Of a stretch of DNA of 64,000 bases, positions 2,059 through 39,283 are shown one piece after another. A program made the position numbers and the translations under genes. Position 1 is the first letter of the stretch; every line of letters starts with the position of its first letter. Origin of the DNA: Gammaproteobacteria bacterium (lineage in GTDB: Bacteria > Pseudomonadota > Gammaproteobacteria > Xanthomonadales > Rhodanobacteraceae). The stretch is taken from assembly GCA_021325195.1 (NCBI GenBank), contig JAJPHQ010000092.1, positions 1-64,000 of the forward strand, in the 5' to 3' direction. The notes under the pieces are model-generated. The model saw only the letters and a program-made list of their open reading frames with translations. It did not search any database and had not been told where the DNA came from.

Positions 2059-3711
2059 TCAATTGCGCCGCCAGGGCCACGCGGTGAGGAAGGCGATCAC
2101 GCCGATCGCGGCGGGGATGACGGGAATCCACGCGCCGCGCTGCGGGGCCAGCGCGAAGATCAGCGCGGCGCCGACCAGCAGCGCGCCGCCGAACGCGGCG
2201 GCCAGAATGCGGCGCTGGACTTCGCGTTGCAGCACGTGCAGGTGCTGGAGTTCGCGTTCGCCCAATTGCAGCGGTCCTTCGCCCTTCGCGATTTCCTCGA
2301 GTCCCCGGTGGATCAGGTCGGGAATGCGCGGGGCGATGTGTAGCCATTCCGGCACGCGCCGGCGGATTTCGCGCAGCGCGCGCAGCGGGTTGTAGCGGTC
2401 GCGCAGGATGCGCCTCAGCACCGGCTGCGCCACCGACCAGATGTCGATGTCGGGATCGAGTTGGCGTCCCAGCCCCTCGATGTTGAGCAGCGTCTTCTGC
2501 AGCAGGATCAGTTGCGGCTGCAGGGTGAGCTCGAACCTGCGCGCGGTGCTGAACAGCTTGGCCACCACTTCGGCCAGCGAGATCTGCGACAGCGGACGCG
2601 TGAAATACGGTTCGCACACCGTGCGCACCGCCGCCTCCAGCTCGTCCACCCGCACGTACGGCGGCATCCAGCCAGCGGCGATGTGCAGTTCGGCGATGCG
2701 CCGGTAGTTGCGTTCGAACAGCGCGATGAAATTCTCGGCCAGCCAGTACTGGTCCGCTTCCGGCAGCGAGCCCATGATCCCGAAATCCAGCGCGATGAAG
2801 CGCGGCTCGTGGATGCGCACCGGATCGACCCAGATGTTGCCGGGATGCGCGTCGGCGTGGAAGAAGTTGTCGCGGAACACCTGTTCGTAGAACAGGCGGA
2901 CGCCCTTCTCGGCCAGCCTGCGGCGGTCGATGCCGGCGGCATCCAGCGCCGTGATGTCGTCGGCCGGGATGCCGTACACGCGCTCCATCGTCAGCACCTG
3001 CTCGGTGGTGTGCGTCCAGCACACCTCGGGCACGTAGAGGTCGGGCGAATGTTCGAAATTGCGCCGCAGCAGGCTGGCGTTGGCGCCCTCGTGCTGCAGG
3101 TTGAGTTCCAGGTGCAGGGTCTTGGCGACCTCGTCGTAGAAATCGCGCGGCCGAATCTTGTCGGCCTGCGGATGCCAGCGCTGCACCATCCGCGCCAGCG
3201 CGTCCAGCAATTCCAGGTTGCGCGCGACATCGCGCGCGATGCCGGGCCGCACCACCTTGACCACCACTTCGTTGCCGTCGGGCAACGCGGCGGCGTGCAC
3301 CTGCGCGATCGAGGCCGAAGCCAGCGGGGTTTCGTCGAAGCGTGCGAACAGTTCCGCGATCGGCGCGCCCAGTTCGCGCTCGACGATCGCGCGCGCCTCG
3401 CTGCCGGGGAAGGGCGGCACCCGGTCCTGCAACTGCGTGAGCTCGTCGGCCACGTCCTCGGGCAGCAGGTCGCGGCGGGTGGACAGCACCTGCCCGGCCT
3501 TGACCCAGATCGGACCCAGTTCGGTCAGCGCCCGGCACAGGCGTGCGCCGCGCGGCAGCGCCGCGATCTCCCGGCGCGGGCGCGGCAGCAGCGCGCGCAT
3601 CCCGCGCAGCAGCGGGATCGCGTGCGGCTGGTCGATCAGGTCGTCGATGCGGTAGCGCACCAGCACCGCGAGGATGTGCAGCATCCGCGGCAACAGGCGC
3701 AGCGGCGTCAT
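2059..3711 (-). CDS. ubiB: UbiB family ubiquinone biosynthesis atypical kinase
   Basis: ABC1/UbiB signatures ([46 protein letters not shown]); C-terminal transmembrane helices. Confidence 0.93.
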
Positions 3712-6044: not shown

Positions 6045-8885
6045 ATGCGCAGGCATCTCGTCGCGATGCTGGCGACCTTCGTCGTCGCCCTGTCCGGTGC
6101 GGCGGCCCAGGCCGCCGATCCAGGCAACCACATCGACATTCCCTACACCCGCTTCACCCTGCCCAACGGCCTGACCGTGGTGGTCAGCGAGGACCACAAG
6201 GCGCCGATCGTGGCGGTCAGCGTGTGGTACCACGTGGGATCGGCCTACGAGCCGGCAGGCAAGACCGGCTTCGCGCACCTGTTCGAGCACCTGATGTTCT
6301 CGGGTTCCGAGCACCACCGGGGCAGCTACTTCAAGCCTTTCGAACTGGCCGGTGCCACCGGCATGAACGGCACCACCTGGCTGGACCGCACCAATTACTT
6401 CGAAACCGTGCCGACCACCGCGCTGGACATGGCGCTGTGGATGGAATCCGACCGGATGGGACACCTGCTGGGCGCGATCGGACAAAAGGAGCTGGATACC
6501 CAGCGCGGCGTGGTGCAGAACGAAAAGCGCCAGGGCGAGAACCGGCCGTACGGGCGCGTGTACGAGGACCTGCAGGCGCACGCGTTCCCGGCCAATCATC
6601 CCTACCATCACGACACCATCGGATCGATGGCCGACTTGAATGCGGCTTCGTTGTCGACGGTGAAGCAGTGGTTCAAGGATTACTACGGCGCGGCCAACAC
6701 CACCCTGGTGCTGGTGGGCGACATCACGCCGGAAGTCGCGCGCGAAAAGGCGATGAAGTATTTCGGCGACATCCCGGCCGGCCCGCGCGTGCCGCGGCCG
6801 CAGGCGTGGATCGCGCCGAACACGACGTCCACGCACGGCACGATGACCGACAACGTGGCGCAGACGCGCATCTACCGCGAGTGGAACACGCCCGGTCTCG
6901 ATGCGGGGGGCAACGACCGCCTGATGCTGGATCTGGCCGCGCAGGTGCTGGGCGGCGGCAAGACCTCGCGGCTGTACCAGCGGCTGGTGTATCGGGACAA
7001 GCTGGCCGACGACGTGTCAGTCAACAACATGTCGTTCGAACTTGCCAGCATGACGCTGCTGCAGGTGGACGTGAAGAAGGGCGTCGATCCCGCGAAGGTC
7101 GACGCCGCGATCGCGGACGAATGGAACCAGTTCCTGAAGGACGGCCCGACCGCCGACGAACTCGCGCGCGCCAAGGCCACCTATCAGGCTTCGATCATTC
7201 GCGGGCTCGAACAGATCGGCGGTTTCTCCGGCAAGGCGGTGACGCTGGCCGAGGGACAGGTTTATCGCGGCGATCCGGGCGCGTGGAAGAAGGATTACGA
7301 CATCACCGTGGCCGCGACGCCGGCCGCGGTGAAGGCCGCCGCCGACCAATGGCTGTCGAAGGGCGATTACACGCTGACCGTGGTGCCGGGCAAGGTGGAT
7401 GCAAAGGATGCCGCGGAGACCGCCGGGCGCGCCGCGATTCCGGGCCGGCCCGCCGACGTGCTCTCGCCCGCGGGCAACTACAAGGTCACGAAGAGCGACG
7501 TCGACCGCAGCAAGCGCGTGCCGCAGGTGACGGCGTTCCCCGACCTCACGTTCCCCACCCTGCAGCACGGCAAGCTGAAGAACGGCATCGAAGTCGTGCT
7601 GGCCGAACGCCACGCGGTTCCGGTGGTGCAGGTCGAGGCGCTGTTCGACGCGGGCTACGCGGCGGATCAGGGCCGCAAGCTCGGCACCTCCAGCTTCACG
7701 ATGTCCATGCTCGACGAAGGCACCCGCGATCTCGATTCGGTGGAGATCGCCAAGCGCAAGCAGCGCCTCGGCGCCGAGATCGCGACCGGTTGCGATCTCG
7801 ATGCCTGCAACGCGTGGATGAGCGCGCTGGATTCCAATCTCGCCGATTCGCTCAAGCTGTACGCCGACATCGTGCGCAACCCCGCGTTCCGCGACGCCGA
7901 CGTGGCGCGCGTGCGCGGGCAATGGCTGGCCGGCATCGCGCAGGAGAAGACCGAACCGACCAGCCTCGCGCTGCGCCTGCTGCCGCCGATCCTGTACGGC
8001 AAGGGCAATGCCTACGCGATTCCGTTCACCGGCACCGGCACGGAAGCTTCGATCAAGGCGCTCACCACCGACGACATGCGCGGCTTCGTTGCCGACTACA
8101 TCCGTCCGGACAACATGAAGATCCTGGTCGCGGGCGACACCACGCTGGATGCGATCATCCCGCAACTGGAAAAGGTGTTCGGCGACTGGCAGGCGCCGGC
8201 GGTGAAGATTCCTGCCAAGAATCTCGCCAAGGTGGATTACCCGGCCAAGTCCAGCGTATATCTGGTCAACCGTCCGGGCGCGCAGCAATCGGTGATCATC
8301 GCGGGACTGGTCGCGCCTTCCACCAAGGCGCCCGACAACCTAGAGATCGGCACCATGAACGGCGCGTTCGGCGGCACCTTCACCTCGCGCCTCAACATGA
8401 ACCTGCGCGAGGACAAGCACTGGGCCTACGGCGCCTTCAGTTTCAGCCCCAACGCGGTCGGCCAGCGGCCGTTCCTGATGTACGCGCCGGTGCAGACCGA
8501 CAAGACCGGGCCGTCGGCGGAAGAGGTGCTGAAGGAAGCGCGCGCGGTGGTCGGCGACAAGCCGCTCACCGATGCCGAGATCGCCAAGATCAAGGACAAC
8601 GACGTGCGCAAGATGCCGGGCCAGTACGAAACCGCGCGCGCCGTGCTGGGGGCGATGGAATCGATCGTGAAATACGACCGCCCGGATGACTACGTGCAGA
8701 CCCTGAAGGCGCGGATCGAGGCGCAGAAGGATGCCGACGTCAACGCGGCCGCCAGGGAAGTGATCCACCCGGACAAGCTGACCTGGGTGATCGTGGGCGA
8801 TCTTTCCAAGATCGAGCAGCCGGTGCGCGCGCTGAACCTTGGCGACGTGCAGGTGATCGATGCGGATGGCAACCTCGTGAAATAG
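6045..8885 (+). CDS. M16 family (pitrilysin-like) metallopeptidase, two-domain, secreted
   Basis: Signal peptide [38 protein letters not shown] (HxxEH) and downstream M16 features; C-terminal M16 repeat. Confidence 0.93.
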
Positions 8886-33493: not shown

Positions 33494-34687
33494 ATGATCG
33501 ACTCGCTGCTCAACTTCGCCGCCCACGGCCTGGCGAACGCCGGCTGGCTCACCATTGCCATCTATCTGCTGCTGGCGACCCAACTGACCATTTTCGCGGT
33601 TACCCTCTATCTGCATCGCAGCCAGGCGCACCGGGGCGTGGATTTTCATCCCGTCGTCGCGCACGTGCTGCGCTTCTGGAACTGGCTGTCCACCGGCATG
33701 GTGACCAGGGAATGGGTGGCCGTGCACCGCAAGCATCACGCCCACACCGAGACCGCCGAGGATCCGCACAGCCCGCAGATCGCCGGCATCCGCAAGGTGT
33801 TCTTCGAAGGCGCCGAACTCTATCGCACGGCGGCCGCCAACAAGGATGACCTGGAAAAGTACGGCCGCGGCACGCCGGACGACTGGATCGAGCGGCACCT
33901 GTACGCCGCGCATCCGTATCTCGGCGTCAGCCTGCTGATGGTGATCGACATCGCGCTGTTCGGCGTGCTGGGCGTCGCGATCTGGGCGGTGCAGATGGCG
34001 TGGATCCCGTTCTGGGCCGCCGGCGTGGTCAACGGCCTCGGCCACTGGTGGGGTTACCGCAATTTCGAGACCGCCGACAAGGCCACCAACCTCACGCCGT
34101 GGGGCGTGTGGGTCGGCGGCGAGGAACTGCACAACAACCATCACGCATTTCCAAGCTCCGCCAAGTTCGCGCTGCGCAAGTTCGAAGTCGATATCGGCTG
34201 GCTGGTGATCCGCGGTCTCGAAAAGATGCATCTGGCGAAAGTGCTGCGCGTCGCGCCGTCGCTGGACGAGCGGCCCAACGTCACACTGCCCGACATGGAA
34301 ACCCTGAAGGCCTTGTTGACCCATCGCTTCGCGGCGATGACCGATTACTACCGGATGGTGATCAAGCCGACCGTGCGTGAGGAACGCACCGCCGCGGATC
34401 GGAATTCCAGCGCGCTGCCGCGCCGGTTGCGCCGCGCGCTGGCCAACGGCGGCCGCTGGCTGGACAAGCAGGGCAAGGCACGGCTCGCGGCGGCGGTCGA
34501 GAACCATCCGCGTCTGCAACAGATCTGCGAGTACCGCGCCCGTCTGGCCGCGCTGCTGGAACAGCGCAAGCCCGAATCCGCACTGGCCGCGCTGCAGCAG
34601 TGGTGCCGCGAGGCCGAGGAAAGCGGCAACCGCAAGCTGGCCGAATTCGCCGCGCGGCTGAAACGGTATGCGGTGGCGAGGGCGTAA
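33494..34687 (+). CDS. Fatty acid / acyl-CoA desaturase
   Basis: Histidine boxes HRSQAHR, HRKHHAH, HNNHHAF. Confidence 0.95.
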   Translation: MIDSLLNFAAHGLANAGWLTIAIYLLLATQLTIFAVTLYLHRSQAHRGVDFHPVVAHVLRFWNWLSTGMVTREWVAVHRKHHAHTETAEDPHSPQIAGIRKVFFEGAELYRTAAANKDDLEKYGRGTPDDWIERHLYAAHPYLGVSLLMVIDIALFGVLGVAIWAVQMAWIPFWAAGVVNGLGHWWGYRNFETADKATNLTPWGVWVGGEELHNNHHAFPSSAKFALRKFEVDIGWLVIRGLEKMHLAKVLRVAPSLDERPNVTLPDMETLKALLTHRFAAMTDYYRMVIKPTVREERTAADRNSSALPRRLRRALANGGRWLDKQGKARLAAAVENHPRLQQICEYRARLAALLEQRKPESALAALQQWCREAEESGNRKLAEFAARLKRYAVARA

Positions 34688-34756
34688 CGTACGTCTCCGC
34701 GCGTTGCCGCAAACGGCATTCTGCAAGAACTGAAAAAACCCGCCGTAAGGCGGGTT
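34604..34756 (+). repeat. Copy A of desaturase-3'-end/terminator direct repeat
   Basis: Aligns by eye with 35552-35703 (TGCCGCGAGGCCGAG..GCGGGTTTT) with scattered substitutions and small indels. Confidence 0.9.
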
Positions 34757-34757
34757 T
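34735..34757 (+). terminator. Rho-independent terminator of desaturase gene
   Basis: AAAACCCGCC-GTAA-GGCGGGTTTT followed by T-rich sequence. Confidence 0.85.
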
Positions 34758-34877
34758 TGTTTATGTATTTCGAAATTTCGTATTTCCGCGAAAAACAGAG
34801 CGCCCGTGTTCGATCGCCATCCACGAATTTGTTTTCTGACCCGATATTCGATTTGTTGCCTACGAGCCTCTTGCGGC

Positions 34878-34899
34878 AGTGTACTAAAATAGGTACACT
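34878..34899. promoter_or_regulatory. Putative TA autoregulatory operator (inverted repeat)
   Basis: AGTGTAC-TAAAATAG-GTACACT immediately upstream of the toxin reading frame. Confidence 0.5.
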
Positions 34900-34906
34900 A
34901 GCGATC

Positions 34907-35256
34907 GTGGCGCCACTTCCGCTTGTCCTCGAATCCGGTTCTACGCCACGGCTCAAGGTCGCGAGCCCGTTCGGGATTGGCTGAAGTCGCTATCTCCCGA
35001 TGCGCGCAAGTCCATCGGCGAGGATCTCAAAACGGTTCAGTTCGGCTGGCCGCTGGGCATGCCGTTGGTACGGAAAATGGGCCCGGGATTGTGGGAAGTG
35101 CGCAGCACGATCGACGCAGGTATTGCTCGCGTCCTCTTCACCACAATCGGGTCGGTCATGGTGCTTCTGCATGGCTTCGTCAAGAAAGCTGCCAAGACCC
35201 CCGCGGACGATCTGAAACTGGCCCTGCGCCGCATGAAGGAGGTACACCATGGCTAA
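34907..35256 (+). pseudogene. HigB/RelE-like (phage Gp49-type) toxin, apparently frameshifted near its N-terminus
   Basis: Frame 1 reads ..RFYATAQGREPVRDWLKSLSPDARKSIGEDLKTVQFGWPLGMPLVRKMGPGLWEVRSTIDAGIARVLFTTIGSVMVLLHGFVKKAAKTPADD.. with no ATG/GTG/TTG between the upstream stop (TAA at 34885) and 35059. A GTG start (34907) lies in frame 2. Confidence 0.6.
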
Positions 35257-35542
35257 ACGTACCACCCACATCGGAACCACCCTCGATGATTTTCTGTCCC
35301 GGGAAGGGGTACTTGAAGAAGTATCCGCGCGGGCAATCAAGCGTGTCATCGCCTGGCAGCTTGCCGAAGCGATGAAAACCCAGGGACTGACCAAGAGTGC
35401 GATGGCCGAGCGCATGCACACCAGCCGCTCGATGCTCGATCGTCTGCTCGATGAAACAGATACTGGCTTGACCATCGAAACGCTAAGTCGGGCAGCACAA
35501 GCACTTGGCTATCGGGTGAAGATTGAACTGGCGGTGGCCTAG
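35249..35542 (+). CDS. XRE/HigA-like antitoxin
   Basis: HTH: AEAMKTQGLTKSAMAERMHTSRSMLDRLLDETDTGLTIETLSRAAQALGYRV; overlaps toxin 3' end by 8 bp. Confidence 0.88.
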   Translation: MAKRTTHIGTTLDDFLSREGVLEEVSARAIKRVIAWQLAEAMKTQGLTKSAMAERMHTSRSMLDRLLDETDTGLTIETLSRAAQALGYRVKIELAVA

Positions 35543-35551
35543 CTGGAATGT

Positions 35552-35703
35552 TGCCGCGAGGCCGAGGCCAGCGGCAACCGCAAGCTGGCCGAGCTCGCCG
35601 CGCGGTTGAAACGGTATGCAGTGGCGAGGGCGTAACGTACGTCTCCGCGCTGCCGCAAACGGCATTTGCATGAACTGAAAAACCCGCCGCGAGGCGGGTT
35701 TTT
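35552..35703 (+). repeat. Copy B: diverged remnant of desaturase 3' end plus terminator
   Basis: Encodes ..CREAEASGNRKLAELAARLKRYAVARA* as at the desaturase C-terminus, followed by the same ACGTACGTCTCCGCG..terminator sequence. Confidence 0.9.
35678..35703 (+). terminator. Rho-independent terminator in copy B
   Basis: AAAAACCCGCC-GCGA-GGCGGGTTTTT. Confidence 0.85.
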
Positions 35704-35943
35704 GCGAGTGAAAGATTTCACTGGCTCGGCAGTGCGAGCCTGCAAACCGAGATGAGTAGACAATGCCAATTGGGCTTTCGGGATGCTTGCTGGCTTTCGC
35801 TTCACGCGCCGTTGACGTTGATGAGATTAAAGAAGTGTGGGGGTTAGGCCGTATCGGCCGTTTGGGTTCTGAAGCGCGATGTGCTGCTTGTGACAAGCGC
35901 GTAGGCCGCATGCGGGAAATACCGTGCACAGGAGGACGGAATC

Positions 35944-37741
35944 ATGGGTATCAATCGGTTCGGAATTCGCTTTGTGCAGTTCGCCGCCATGGGACTGTCC
36001 GCGGCAGTCGCGGGCCCATTCCAAAGTGCGGGGGGGGGGGGGGGGAGGAACCCGCCCGTGCCCTTTGTTCCACAAGGGGGGGGGGGCGGGGGGGGCGGGG
36101 CGCCGTGCGGGGGGGGGGGGGGGGGGGGGGATAGTAACGCACGCCGTCATCTTGTCACCACATGACGTGGTCGCGGGTCCGCTGGAGTTGACTCAACAGC
36201 TGCGCGTCGTAATTGCACTGAAGCTGCGCAATCAGGCACAACTGCAGGCGCTCATTTCTACACCGGGAGGATTCACGCCACTGACATCGGCGCAATTTGA
36301 GGCGCAATTCTCTCCAACTGAAACGCAAGCGCAGGAAGTTGCGAACTTCCTGATGGGCGCAGGTTTCCGGAACGTTGCCATCGCCCCGAATCGGCTGTTG
36401 GTTTCCGGTGACGCAACCGTCGCCATCGTACAGGCAGCGTTCAAGACTTCGATGGTGCGAGTGTATACGCATGACGGCCGCATGGCCTATGCGAACAGCA
36501 CGGATGTAGAGATCCCAACTGCGCTGCAAAGCAGCGTCCAAGCAGTGCTGGGACTGCAAGACGTCGATATCATGCACACGTTCTCCGAACCCGTACAGCA
36601 AAACGTCGTTCCGGCGAACCTGTGCAATCCAAATCAGAATATCGCTCAGCATTCGGATAGCGCGTCTCCCGCGATCATTTCATGCAAGGTGGGCCACTAT
36701 CCCACTGACTTTCCGTCAATCTACGCAGCCACTGATCTGCCAACCGCTAATTCGGTCCCTGTCGGTATCTTCACTTGGGGTGACTTGACCCAAGTCATTC
36801 AAGATCTCAATCAATTCACGTCAGTACATGGCCTTCCAACGGTTTCCGTTCAAGTGGTTGGGCCCGGCAGCAGCGATACTTCTGGCACCGGCGAGTGGGA
36901 CTTGGACAGCCAAACCATCGTCGGCATGAGCGGGGGCGTCCAAAAAATCGTGTTCTACGATGCTGCTGGTTATTCCCACGCGGATTTGTACAGCATTTTC
37001 AATACAGCAGTTGCTGCGGACGCGGTGAAAGTGATCAATGGTTCCTTCGGAGATTGCGAAACGCTTTCAAGGCAGGACGGATACGCGGCGGCCGATGACA
37101 ACGTTTTTGCAGAAGCGGTAGCGCAGGGGCAGACCTTGTCGTTCTCGTCCGGTGACTCGGGCGCTACGGGTTATGAATGCCCAGCAGGAAGTCTGATACC
37201 GAATTGGCCGGCCAGTTCGCAATACGTCGTTTCAGTCGGTGGAACGAGCTTGGGTACGGATCCAGATAACCCAGACCAGTGGGTCAGGGAGAATGTGTGG
37301 AACGGCTATTCGGATGGCTGCGGCGGTGCAACGGGAGGTAGCCCAAGTACTTTCGAGCCAATGCCAGCATGGCAGAAAAATCTAGGACAAAATGCTGGCC
37401 ACAATACTCGCGGCGTGCCTGACATCGCGTTCGACGCCGACCCGTGCTCCGGCTCCTTCATCATCGTCGATGGGAATACCTTACAGTACGGCGGCACCAG
37501 CTTGGCGTCGCCGCTGTTTGTCGGCGCCTGGGCACGGATCTTGGCGTTCAAGGCCGGGCCGATCGGTTTTGCCGCACCGTTGTTGTATGGGCTCCAGGCA
37601 CGGGATCTCCACGACGTCACGATCGGCAACAACAACGGTGAAACGGCGGCGCCGGGTTGGGACTACACCACTGGCTTTGGAAGCCTGATAGTCACCCAAT
37701 CAGCCTACGATCTCCCCATCCACTCCGTCCCACCCGGCTAA
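35944..37741 (+). CDS. S53 family peptidase (sedolisin/kumamolisin-like) with pro-kumamolisin propeptide; reading frame interrupted at G-homopolymers
   Basis: SD AGGAGGACGGAATC-ATG and signal peptide MGINRFGIRFVQFAAMGLSAAVAGPFQSA in frame 1. Propeptide and catalytic domain (IVTHAVILSPHDVVAGPLEL.., GEWDLDSQ, SGDSGATGYECP, YGGTSLASP) in frame 2. Confidence 0.85.
36030..36130. repeat. Cluster of G homopolymers (16, 11, 8, 4 and 22 G)
   Basis: Direct count: G16 36030-36045; G11 36076-36086; G8 36088-36095; G4 36097-36100; G22 36109-36130. Confidence 0.95.
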
Positions 37742-37831
37742 ACCGTAGGGGAAGTTCCCCCGGCTCTGTCGAAGGTTACTCGATCCTTGAAGCCTAGTCC
37801 TCGGTCTTCTGCAAAGTTTAAGGAGAGGCGC

Positions 37832-38566
37832 ATGAGCACCTTCAAAAGCTACGGGCTTTATGTACTTCTCTCAGCAGTCTTGCCCGGGACTGCATTGGCT
37901 AGTCAGTCGCATTGGTACATTGCAGTCGACGGAGGACAGGTGCGCTACAGCGGCATTTCGGGCATTGCCCAGCAATGGATATCTATTACGCCATTGCCGC
38001 CGCAGGGCATGTTGATCATAAGCTCTCAATCTTCGCTTCAGCAGAGCGAATCGAACAATATCGGTTACCGGCTGACCGCTGGCTACCAGTTCAACCGCTA
38101 CTTCGGCATCGAAGGCGGATTCGCGAACTTTGGCCAGGTACAAGCGGATGGGAACGGGTCGGTAGTTATGTCACCAACCAATGGAATCCTGCCCCTGGAG
38201 CAAATCGCCACTTTTACCAGTTCGGCGAAGTTGCGGGTACGGGGCTGGGAATTGGCGGGTATTGCGAGTTGGCCGTTGAGCCAGAGTTGGTCATTGTTCG
38301 GGCGAGCGGGCATATTTGATTCGCACACCAAACTGGAAGTGGCCAGTACACCGGCTCCGCCCACGCCGGGAGAACTGGTCCCGAAATTCATCAACGTGTC
38401 GAGTAGCAAATGGGTGCCGGCATACGGCGCCGGCGTGAACTTCTCGCCAATCGACCATTGGGTGCTGCGGCTGGAGTGGAATCGGTATGCACATCTAGGC
38501 GATCACGGCACCACAGGAAGGTTGAATGTGAACCTACTGTCGCTCGGGGTGCTGTATGCGTTCTGA
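37832..38566 (+). CDS. Outer-membrane beta-barrel (OmpA/OmpW-like) protein
   Basis: SD AAGGAGAGGCGC; signal peptide; alternating beta pattern (NIGYRLTAGYQFNRYFGIEGGFANFG) ending LLSLGVLYAF with C-terminal Phe. Confidence 0.85.
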   Translation: MSTFKSYGLYVLLSAVLPGTALASQSHWYIAVDGGQVRYSGISGIAQQWISITPLPPQGMLIISSQSSLQQSESNNIGYRLTAGYQFNRYFGIEGGFANFGQVQADGNGSVVMSPTNGILPLEQIATFTSSAKLRVRGWELAGIASWPLSQSWSLFGRAGIFDSHTKLEVASTPAPPTPGELVPKFINVSSSKWVPAYGAGVNFSPIDHWVLRLEWNRYAHLGDHGTTGRLNVNLLSLGVLYAF

Positions 38567-38680
38567 GATGATCAAGCTGTACAGCGCCTGCATATATGTG
38601 CATCAACGCGCTGGTCAGGTTGGGGGATCTGCTGGAAAGTAAAACCCCACCTTGCGGTGTGTTTAATTGTTCAAAGTCGC

Positions 38681-38832
38681 TGGATCCCGGATCACGGCTG
38701 CGCCGTGTCCGGGGTGACGCGATGGCAGAGACACTGGATCCCGTGTCAACGCACGTCCGTGTGCTGCACGGGATGAAGTCATCCCATAAAACTGGATCCC
38801 GGATCCCGGCTGCGCCGTGTTCGGGATGACGC
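38681..38832. repeat. Array of three palindromic intergenic repeat units
   Basis: TGGATCCCGGATCACGGCTGCGCCGTGTCCGGGGTGACGC; TGGATCCCGTG..CACGGGATGA; TGGATCCCGGATCCCGGCTGCGCCGTGTTCGGGATGACGC. Confidence 0.85.
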
Positions 38833-38869
38833 AACGGTTGACCACGCGCTGCGCGCGTGGACCGTTGCG

Positions 38870-39034
38870 TCACTTGATCTTGCCTTCCTTGTAGATCACG
38901 TGTTTGCGGACGACGGGGTCGTATTTCCTGACCTCCATCTTGTCCGGGGTGTTCTTCTTGTTCTTGTCGGTGGTGTAGAAGCGGCCGGTGCCGGCCGAGG
39001 AAACCAGGCGGATCTTGTCGCGTTTGCTTGCCAT
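38870..39034 (-). CDS. rpmG: 50S ribosomal protein L33 (cysteine-free form)
   Basis: [54 protein letters not shown] (54 aa; missing from the ORF track because short). Confidence 0.96.
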
Positions 39035-39046
39035 GGGGAGTTCTCC

Positions 39047-39283
39047 TTACACCTTCTCGCCGCGTGCGCGCAGGTCCGCGAGCACGGCTTCGATGCCGTT
39101 CTTGTCGATGGTGCGCAGCGCCTTGCCGGACACGCGCAGTTTCACCCAGCGCTTCTCGCTGGGCACCCAGAACCGGCGTTCGTGCAGGTTGGGCAGCCAG
39201 CGTCGCTTGGTCTTGTTGTTGGCGTGCGACACGTTGTGGCCGCTCTGCACGCCCTTTCCGGTAACCTGGCAGATTCGTGCCAT
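39047..39283 (-). CDS. rpmB: 50S ribosomal protein L28
   Basis: [40 protein letters not shown]. Confidence 0.97.

Follow-up and report, generated by a model that had tools for sequence, protein, structure and literature searches.

A toxin-antitoxin cassette between two copies of a desaturase gene tail, and the recurrence of this layout behind unrelated genes

The movement of chromosomal toxin-antitoxin (TA) pairs that have no transposon, integron or phage attached to them is an open question, and the closest described precedent comes from other addiction-type units. For some restriction-modification systems, reviews describe insertion accompanied by long target duplications, which vary in length and are on the order of 100 bp (PMC3874152; PMC1643837, summarizing Nobusato et al. 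2000; PMC3031569). In a search of the open-access literature, no report of such duplications was found for ordinary type II TA modules (this is a weak negative, because subscription papers were mostly outside its scope). Phage 21 and e14 provide a related example, in which integration at icd brings a replacement gene tail.

Here we describe a HigBA/Gp49-type TA pair that lies between two copies of the 3' end of a fatty-acid desaturase gene in a 64-kb stretch of DNA (the window, meaning the whole of the stretch analysed). As with phage 21 and e14 in icd, the 3' end of a gene is present twice, with silent differences between the copies, and the host gene is intact; unlike that system, there is no integrase and no single attachment site, the unit is less than 1 kb, and the target genes vary. 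The locus also resembles the restriction-modification insertions (PMC3874152; PMC1643837) in that an addiction-type unit is accompanied by a variable direct duplication of about 100 bp, with no transposase or integrase at the site. It differs from them in its cargo, which is a type II TA pair, and in the nature of the duplicate, which is a gene 3' end in all of the cases found; in addition, the copies here can differ in the manner of alleles, pointing to imported homologous DNA. A third process, homology-facilitated illegitimate recombination, has been described for linear DNA, both in competent bacteria and during conjugation of E. coli (PMC3240628). Its combination of one homologous and one non-homologous junction would yield the product seen in the window, although here such an event is read from sequence. 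The pattern extends to ordinary TA modules what was described mainly for restriction-modification genes. As a recurring scar, consisting of an intact gene, a TA pair and a spare tail, it makes TA movement testable, since scars of this kind can be tallied, their age can be estimated from how far the tails have diverged, and donors can be traced.

The desaturase locus and its TA pair

The features of the locus are collected in Table 1. Copies A and B of the desaturase tail form a direct repeat of 155-159 bp around the TA pair, and local alignment and a repeat search agree on their identity. The frame and the stop are kept, and the three indels, all small, fall in the spacer/terminator part. Copy B has the same orientation as the gene and its own terminator; it starts 6 bp past the antitoxin stop (35542), leaving about 789 bp between the copies. 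An earlier note on this DNA had located the two copies correctly to within a few bases, and had given copy B a start within about 10 bp of the antitoxin stop, which agrees with the measured distance. The pair is the sole direct repeat of at least 50 bp within the window, and A and B are the only two copies of the desaturase tail in the 2.9-Mb assembly (copy B, E 5e-56), which rules out copy B as a dispersed repeat. No RNA family was found at the locus at the gathering threshold. Desaturase residues 295-393, the C-terminal part that contains the duplicated tail, match the ISL3 transposase family DDE_Tnp_ISL3 at 27 bits, above the cut-off, an odd shared domain.

Table 1. Positions of features in the desaturase-rpmG region of the window
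Feature	Position	Strand	Evidence or remark
Fatty-acid desaturase gene, intact, 397 aa	33494..34687	+	Pfam FA_desaturase 5.6e-13
Tail copy A (last 28 codons, stop, spacer, terminator), codons inside the intact desaturase gene	34601..34759	+	91% identity to copy B
Intrinsic terminator of copy A	34735..34758	+	Conserved hairpin 3' of desaturase in congeners
Spacer, terminator A to TA operator	34760..34878	.	Homology with other TA loci begins at about 34863
Palindrome GTGTACTAAAATAGGTACAC, probable TA operator	34879..34898	.	GTAC...GTAC pair conserved in homologs
Gp49/HigB-type toxin gene, frameshifted by 1-bp deletion at 34933/34934	34907..35256	+	PF05973 2.1e-21 in downstream frame
HigA-like XRE antitoxin, 97 aa, intact	35249..35542	+	HTH_37 2e-07, HTH_3
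Tail copy B (28 desaturase codons, stop, spacer, terminator), without the 5' part of the gene	35549..35703	+	
Downstream long ORF, sedolisin-like by reading, includes poly-G stretch	35924..37741	+	Not found in congener intervals fetched
OmpA-like beta-barrel protein	37787..38566	+	PF01389/PF13505 ~1e-15
rpmG and rpmB (named by reading), far flank of variable interval	38870..39283	-	Syntenic in congeners

The unit between the tails has the organization of HigBA/Gp49 type II modules (PF05973 toxin plus XRE antitoxin): a toxin-first operon, an HTH antitoxin directly downstream with its ORF overlapping that of the toxin, and an upstream palindrome, its function being predicted from sequence. It differs from those modules in being bracketed by gene-tail copies and in having a frameshifted toxin. 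Past the deletion the toxin still matches PF05973 with 76 bits against a cut-off of 23.9. At about the tenth codon its frame is one base short relative to five homologs (G007, G009, G136, G180 and G176), where a sequencing error is possible; as sequenced, the antitoxin alone is intact. Because of this frameshift, the TA unit of the window seems older or damaged. The antitoxin has relatives in other genomes that are 74-91% identical. The TA relatives in these genomes can be aligned over about 34863-35543, a span that runs from operator to antitoxin stop, and the homology does not continue past it; thus the TA unit ends where the desaturase tail starts. No recombinase was found among the ORFs of 34760-35548. 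The same genome contains a second Gp49-type toxin gene (G000:C35:1837-2100), with an intact frame and no tail bracket found around it.

Uninserted sites are known from twelve congeners, which are other species whose desaturase orthologs, full or partial, are 77-86% identical at the protein level. The earlier note had suggested looking in related strains for alleles with a single desaturase tail and no TA pair, and such alleles exist: all of the congeners with a readable locus (12/12) have this arrangement. Their desaturase-rpmG stretch can be as short as tens of bases or as long as about 3.3 kb, and it differs in gene content. Window positions 34687-38870 together with the congener loci (L024-L035) represent a hotspot of variable gene content, with genes that, by reading, encode an ABC exporter, a class A beta-lactamase-like protein, a PEP-CTERM-like protein and others. 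Within the downstream ORF of the window, positions 36020-36130 contain long G runs, a suspected read or assembly artefact of two-colour sequencing; a glycine-rich ORF in G005 was considered as a counterpart of this ORF, and the comparison gave no homology. Two congeners, G007 and G009, have a close relative of the window TA pair at other locations.

The nearest relative of each copy is the other one, as A and B have in common a spacer that is absent in the congeners. Because this fast-evolving spacer is shared, any donor would belong to the same or a very close species; the analysis turned up neither a donor molecule nor an empty site in the same species. In their coding part the two copies are equally far from the congeners, so that either A or B may be the imported one. 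The proposal that copy B was imported is consistent with the single-tailed, TA-less congeners, but, given this equal distance, copy A is a candidate too.

The same layout at other TA loci

Insight into the generality of this arrangement came from a screen of about 100 related TA loci of the Gp49 type, pooled from overlapping searches, which looked for direct repeats whose two copies flank the TA pair. Seven loci, which represent six independent cases if the window is counted, have an intact gene next to the TA pair and a repeat of the end of that gene beyond the pair. The search for other genes followed by cargo and a duplicate tail, which the earlier note had suggested, was thus productive: outside the window there are five loci or locus pairs, involving five unrelated genes, with the order intact gene, TA pair, second 3' end. 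In G176 the gene is phosphatase-like, and the repeat consists of 120 bp at 98% and 83 bp at 95% identity; the spare copy carries an internal deletion. In G750 and G638 it is metZ, repeated over about 103 bp at 86% and 82%, respectively, apparently reflecting one shared junction. A gene for a membrane protein (PuuD-like by reading, its C-terminus resembling a cytochrome) is bracketed with a TA pair of a different subfamily in G215 (60 bp at 85%), gloB is the gene in G528 (36 bp at 92%), and an MBL-fold hydrolase gene (by reading) provides the longest repeat, in G596 (333 bp at 92%). The TA pair may be oriented either way relative to the bracketing gene. Most of the spare tails keep the frame and the stop, the exceptions being G176, with its internal deletion, and metZ of G638, where the stop is lost. 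Because the layout recurs behind five unrelated genes, it suggests that TA pairs can settle behind a gene and leave that gene unbroken. The survival of the host gene and its terminator further suggests that positions behind genes are chosen or kept for this reason.

Other collections were without such brackets. Among 30 loci with ParE-type TA pairs there was no clean gene-tail bracket, and none was present at one viral contig with a TA relative or at eight plasmid or chromid carriers of the TA pair; a phage collection searched for the window TA pair gave no match. Several repeats were rejected as gene tails: those of L304 and L129 are repeat-rich intergenic elements, that of L184 is a 26-bp tRNA-like end, that of L131 reflects homologous regulator genes, that of L277 is complex and concerns ParE, and that of L263 spans 21 bp. 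The repeat of L183 (G683:C71) was also rejected as a gene tail, since it looks like group II intron copies; here a related TA pair lies between two intron-like copies of 386 bp that are 94.6% identical.

The frequency of the layout was compared with that in 1851 pseudo-intervals of the same size, of which 1218 were placed around conserved desaturase loci of many species and 633 within the 20-kb neighbourhoods of TA loci. These controls gave 8/1218 and 7/633 matches, respectively, nearly all of them short or weak. Strong direct repeats (E of about 1e-10 or better) were present at 10 of the roughly 100 TA loci versus 6 of the 1851 controls (Fisher p ~1e-9). Gene-tail brackets were present at 7 of the roughly 100 versus 1 of the 1851 (Fisher p ~1e-8; this class was set after the matches were seen, so its p-value is descriptive). 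The layout is therefore commoner around TA pairs, yet it occurs beyond them too, because the one bracketed control has a non-TA cargo. In this control (L301, G456:C33, 2790-3149 and 3831-4190), the 3'-terminal 360 bp of a gene for a dnaE2-like error-prone DNA polymerase are repeated at 95.6% identity, and the cargo is about 680 bp of other sequence with no evident TA pair.

Origin of the second tail

The differences between the tails bear on whether the spare copy is an allele or a decayed duplicate. For a dead copy beside a selected one, the expected synonymous share is about 40% (our own estimate), and it is 27% under pure drift. The tails of G596 differ by 24 synonymous and 3 nonsynonymous changes (24:3), and the metZ tails of G750 by 11:2; when the spare metZ tails of G750 and G638 are compared with each other, the ratio is 8.5:2.5. 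In G528 it is 3:1 and in G215 it is 4:5. Pooled over five cases, with the window included, the ratio is 45.5:13.5 (p ~4e-9 versus 40%), an excess whose source is G596 and metZ. (It should be noted that G176 was left out of this pool, because the few differences it shows (0:2 and 2:2) are located at the edge of the deletion or close to the stop.) Furthermore, the spare tail of G596 has the congener residues in FGHWV and EMWQ, at sites occupied by D and R in the intact gene; among five congeners compared at these sites, H is present in all and Q in four. Because the tails of G596 and metZ differ mostly synonymously, their spare copies would appear to be functional alleles, and so were probably part of a working gene until recently rather than decayed. 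As judged by these substitutions, recombination with another strain's DNA is a better fit for them than an in-place duplication of the target.

At the window locus the coding differences stand at 3.5:2.5, a ratio that is uninformative, in our reading, as evidence for allelic tails. The substitutions that the earlier note called coding-style are real, and at this locus alone they lend weak support to its view of copy B as the tail of a related allele; for metZ and the MBL-fold hydrolase that view is borne out by synonymous divergence.

We judge it somewhat probable that the HigBA/Gp49-type cassette was added behind the desaturase by recombination anchored in a homologous gene 3' end. The incoming DNA would have carried the TA pair joined to a second, allelic desaturase tail, and would have entered either by integration of a circle or through a homologous junction on one side and an illegitimate one on the other. 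The product would then be intact gene, tail, terminator, TA pair, spare tail and terminator, in that order. Homologous recombination in the tail as the cause, as well as the identity of the imported tail, is something we infer. Allele-like tails would support arrival by such tail-anchored recombination without proving it; the copies in G176, 95-98% identical with one internal deletion, look like an ordinary recent duplication and count against it. The distal copy may be either the imported tail or, as in icd, the displaced original. Thus, of the idea that the cassette arrived carrying its own tail and spared the host gene, the intactness of the gene holds, and the cassette may either have carried the tail or have displaced the original one. 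The wider idea of TA movement by homologous recombination at gene tails gains from the independent recurrence and from allele-like tails in two cases, with direction, donor and mechanism being what we infer. A still more general scheme is conceivable, although we regard it as doubtful: small TA cassettes would travel without a recombinase of their own by means of homologous gene tails, carried or acquired, in a repeatable process that leaves the gene intact, and gene ends would be generic docking sites for addiction genes.

Insertion with duplication of the target in place, after which two identical copies drifted apart, would give the anatomy and scale reported for restriction-modification genes ('in the order of 100 bp', of variable length; PMC3874152; PMC1643837), and it accommodates both the near-identity of the G176 copies and the non-coding spacer shared by A and B. 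However, drift of a dead copy predicts mostly nonsynonymous change, the opposite of the ratios in G596, in metZ and in the pool, and it sits poorly with spare tails that keep frame and stop, as all but those of G176 and G638 do; we consider this explanation rather unlikely. Site-specific integration at gene 3' ends, in which an element brought a replacement tail, displaced the original distally, and lost its integrase or used one in trans, is less likely again. Every case does lie at a gene 3' end, and the distal tail of G596 retains congener-like residues, as do those of G215 and the window in part; two TA relatives (G007 and G009) adjoin a small tyrosine recombinase, and the stretch around one TA pair (G156) is bounded on both sides by a 49-bp repeat similar to a tRNA end. 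An integrase, however, implies one site, whereas the bracketing repeats range from 36 to 333 bp in six unrelated genes with no common core noticed, and no integrase of the G009 type is near any bracketed TA pair.

Two further histories concern the window more directly. Copy B might be the remnant of a tandem desaturase gene that lost its 5' part when the TA pair replaced it, a topology compatible with its orientation and its own terminator. A second desaturase is absent from the locus in every congener, the gap between the copies is filled by TA homology and the spacer with no further desaturase piece in it, and the five other genes would require five such tandem losses, which makes this history very improbable. 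Least probable of all is the prior presence of the TA pair, followed by the arrival of a segment comprising tail B, the long ORF and the OMP gene, anchored on tail B. The long ORF and the OMP gene are also missing from the congener intervals fetched, and the region is variable; but in the other cases the TA pair is always between the tails, whatever comes after. Recombination anchored in the gene tail remains the reading we prefer.

An integrase adjacent to a TA locus was found only in G007 and G009. In these two genomes the TA relatives lie head to head with a XerC/D-type tyrosine recombinase (L149, 2813-3604, minus strand; L148, 6132-6779, plus strand), possibly representing another mobile form of the TA pair. 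In L155 (G156:C1), a related TA pair lies between identical 49-bp pieces resembling a tRNA 3' end (3228-3276 and 7103-7151), as in an integrative element.
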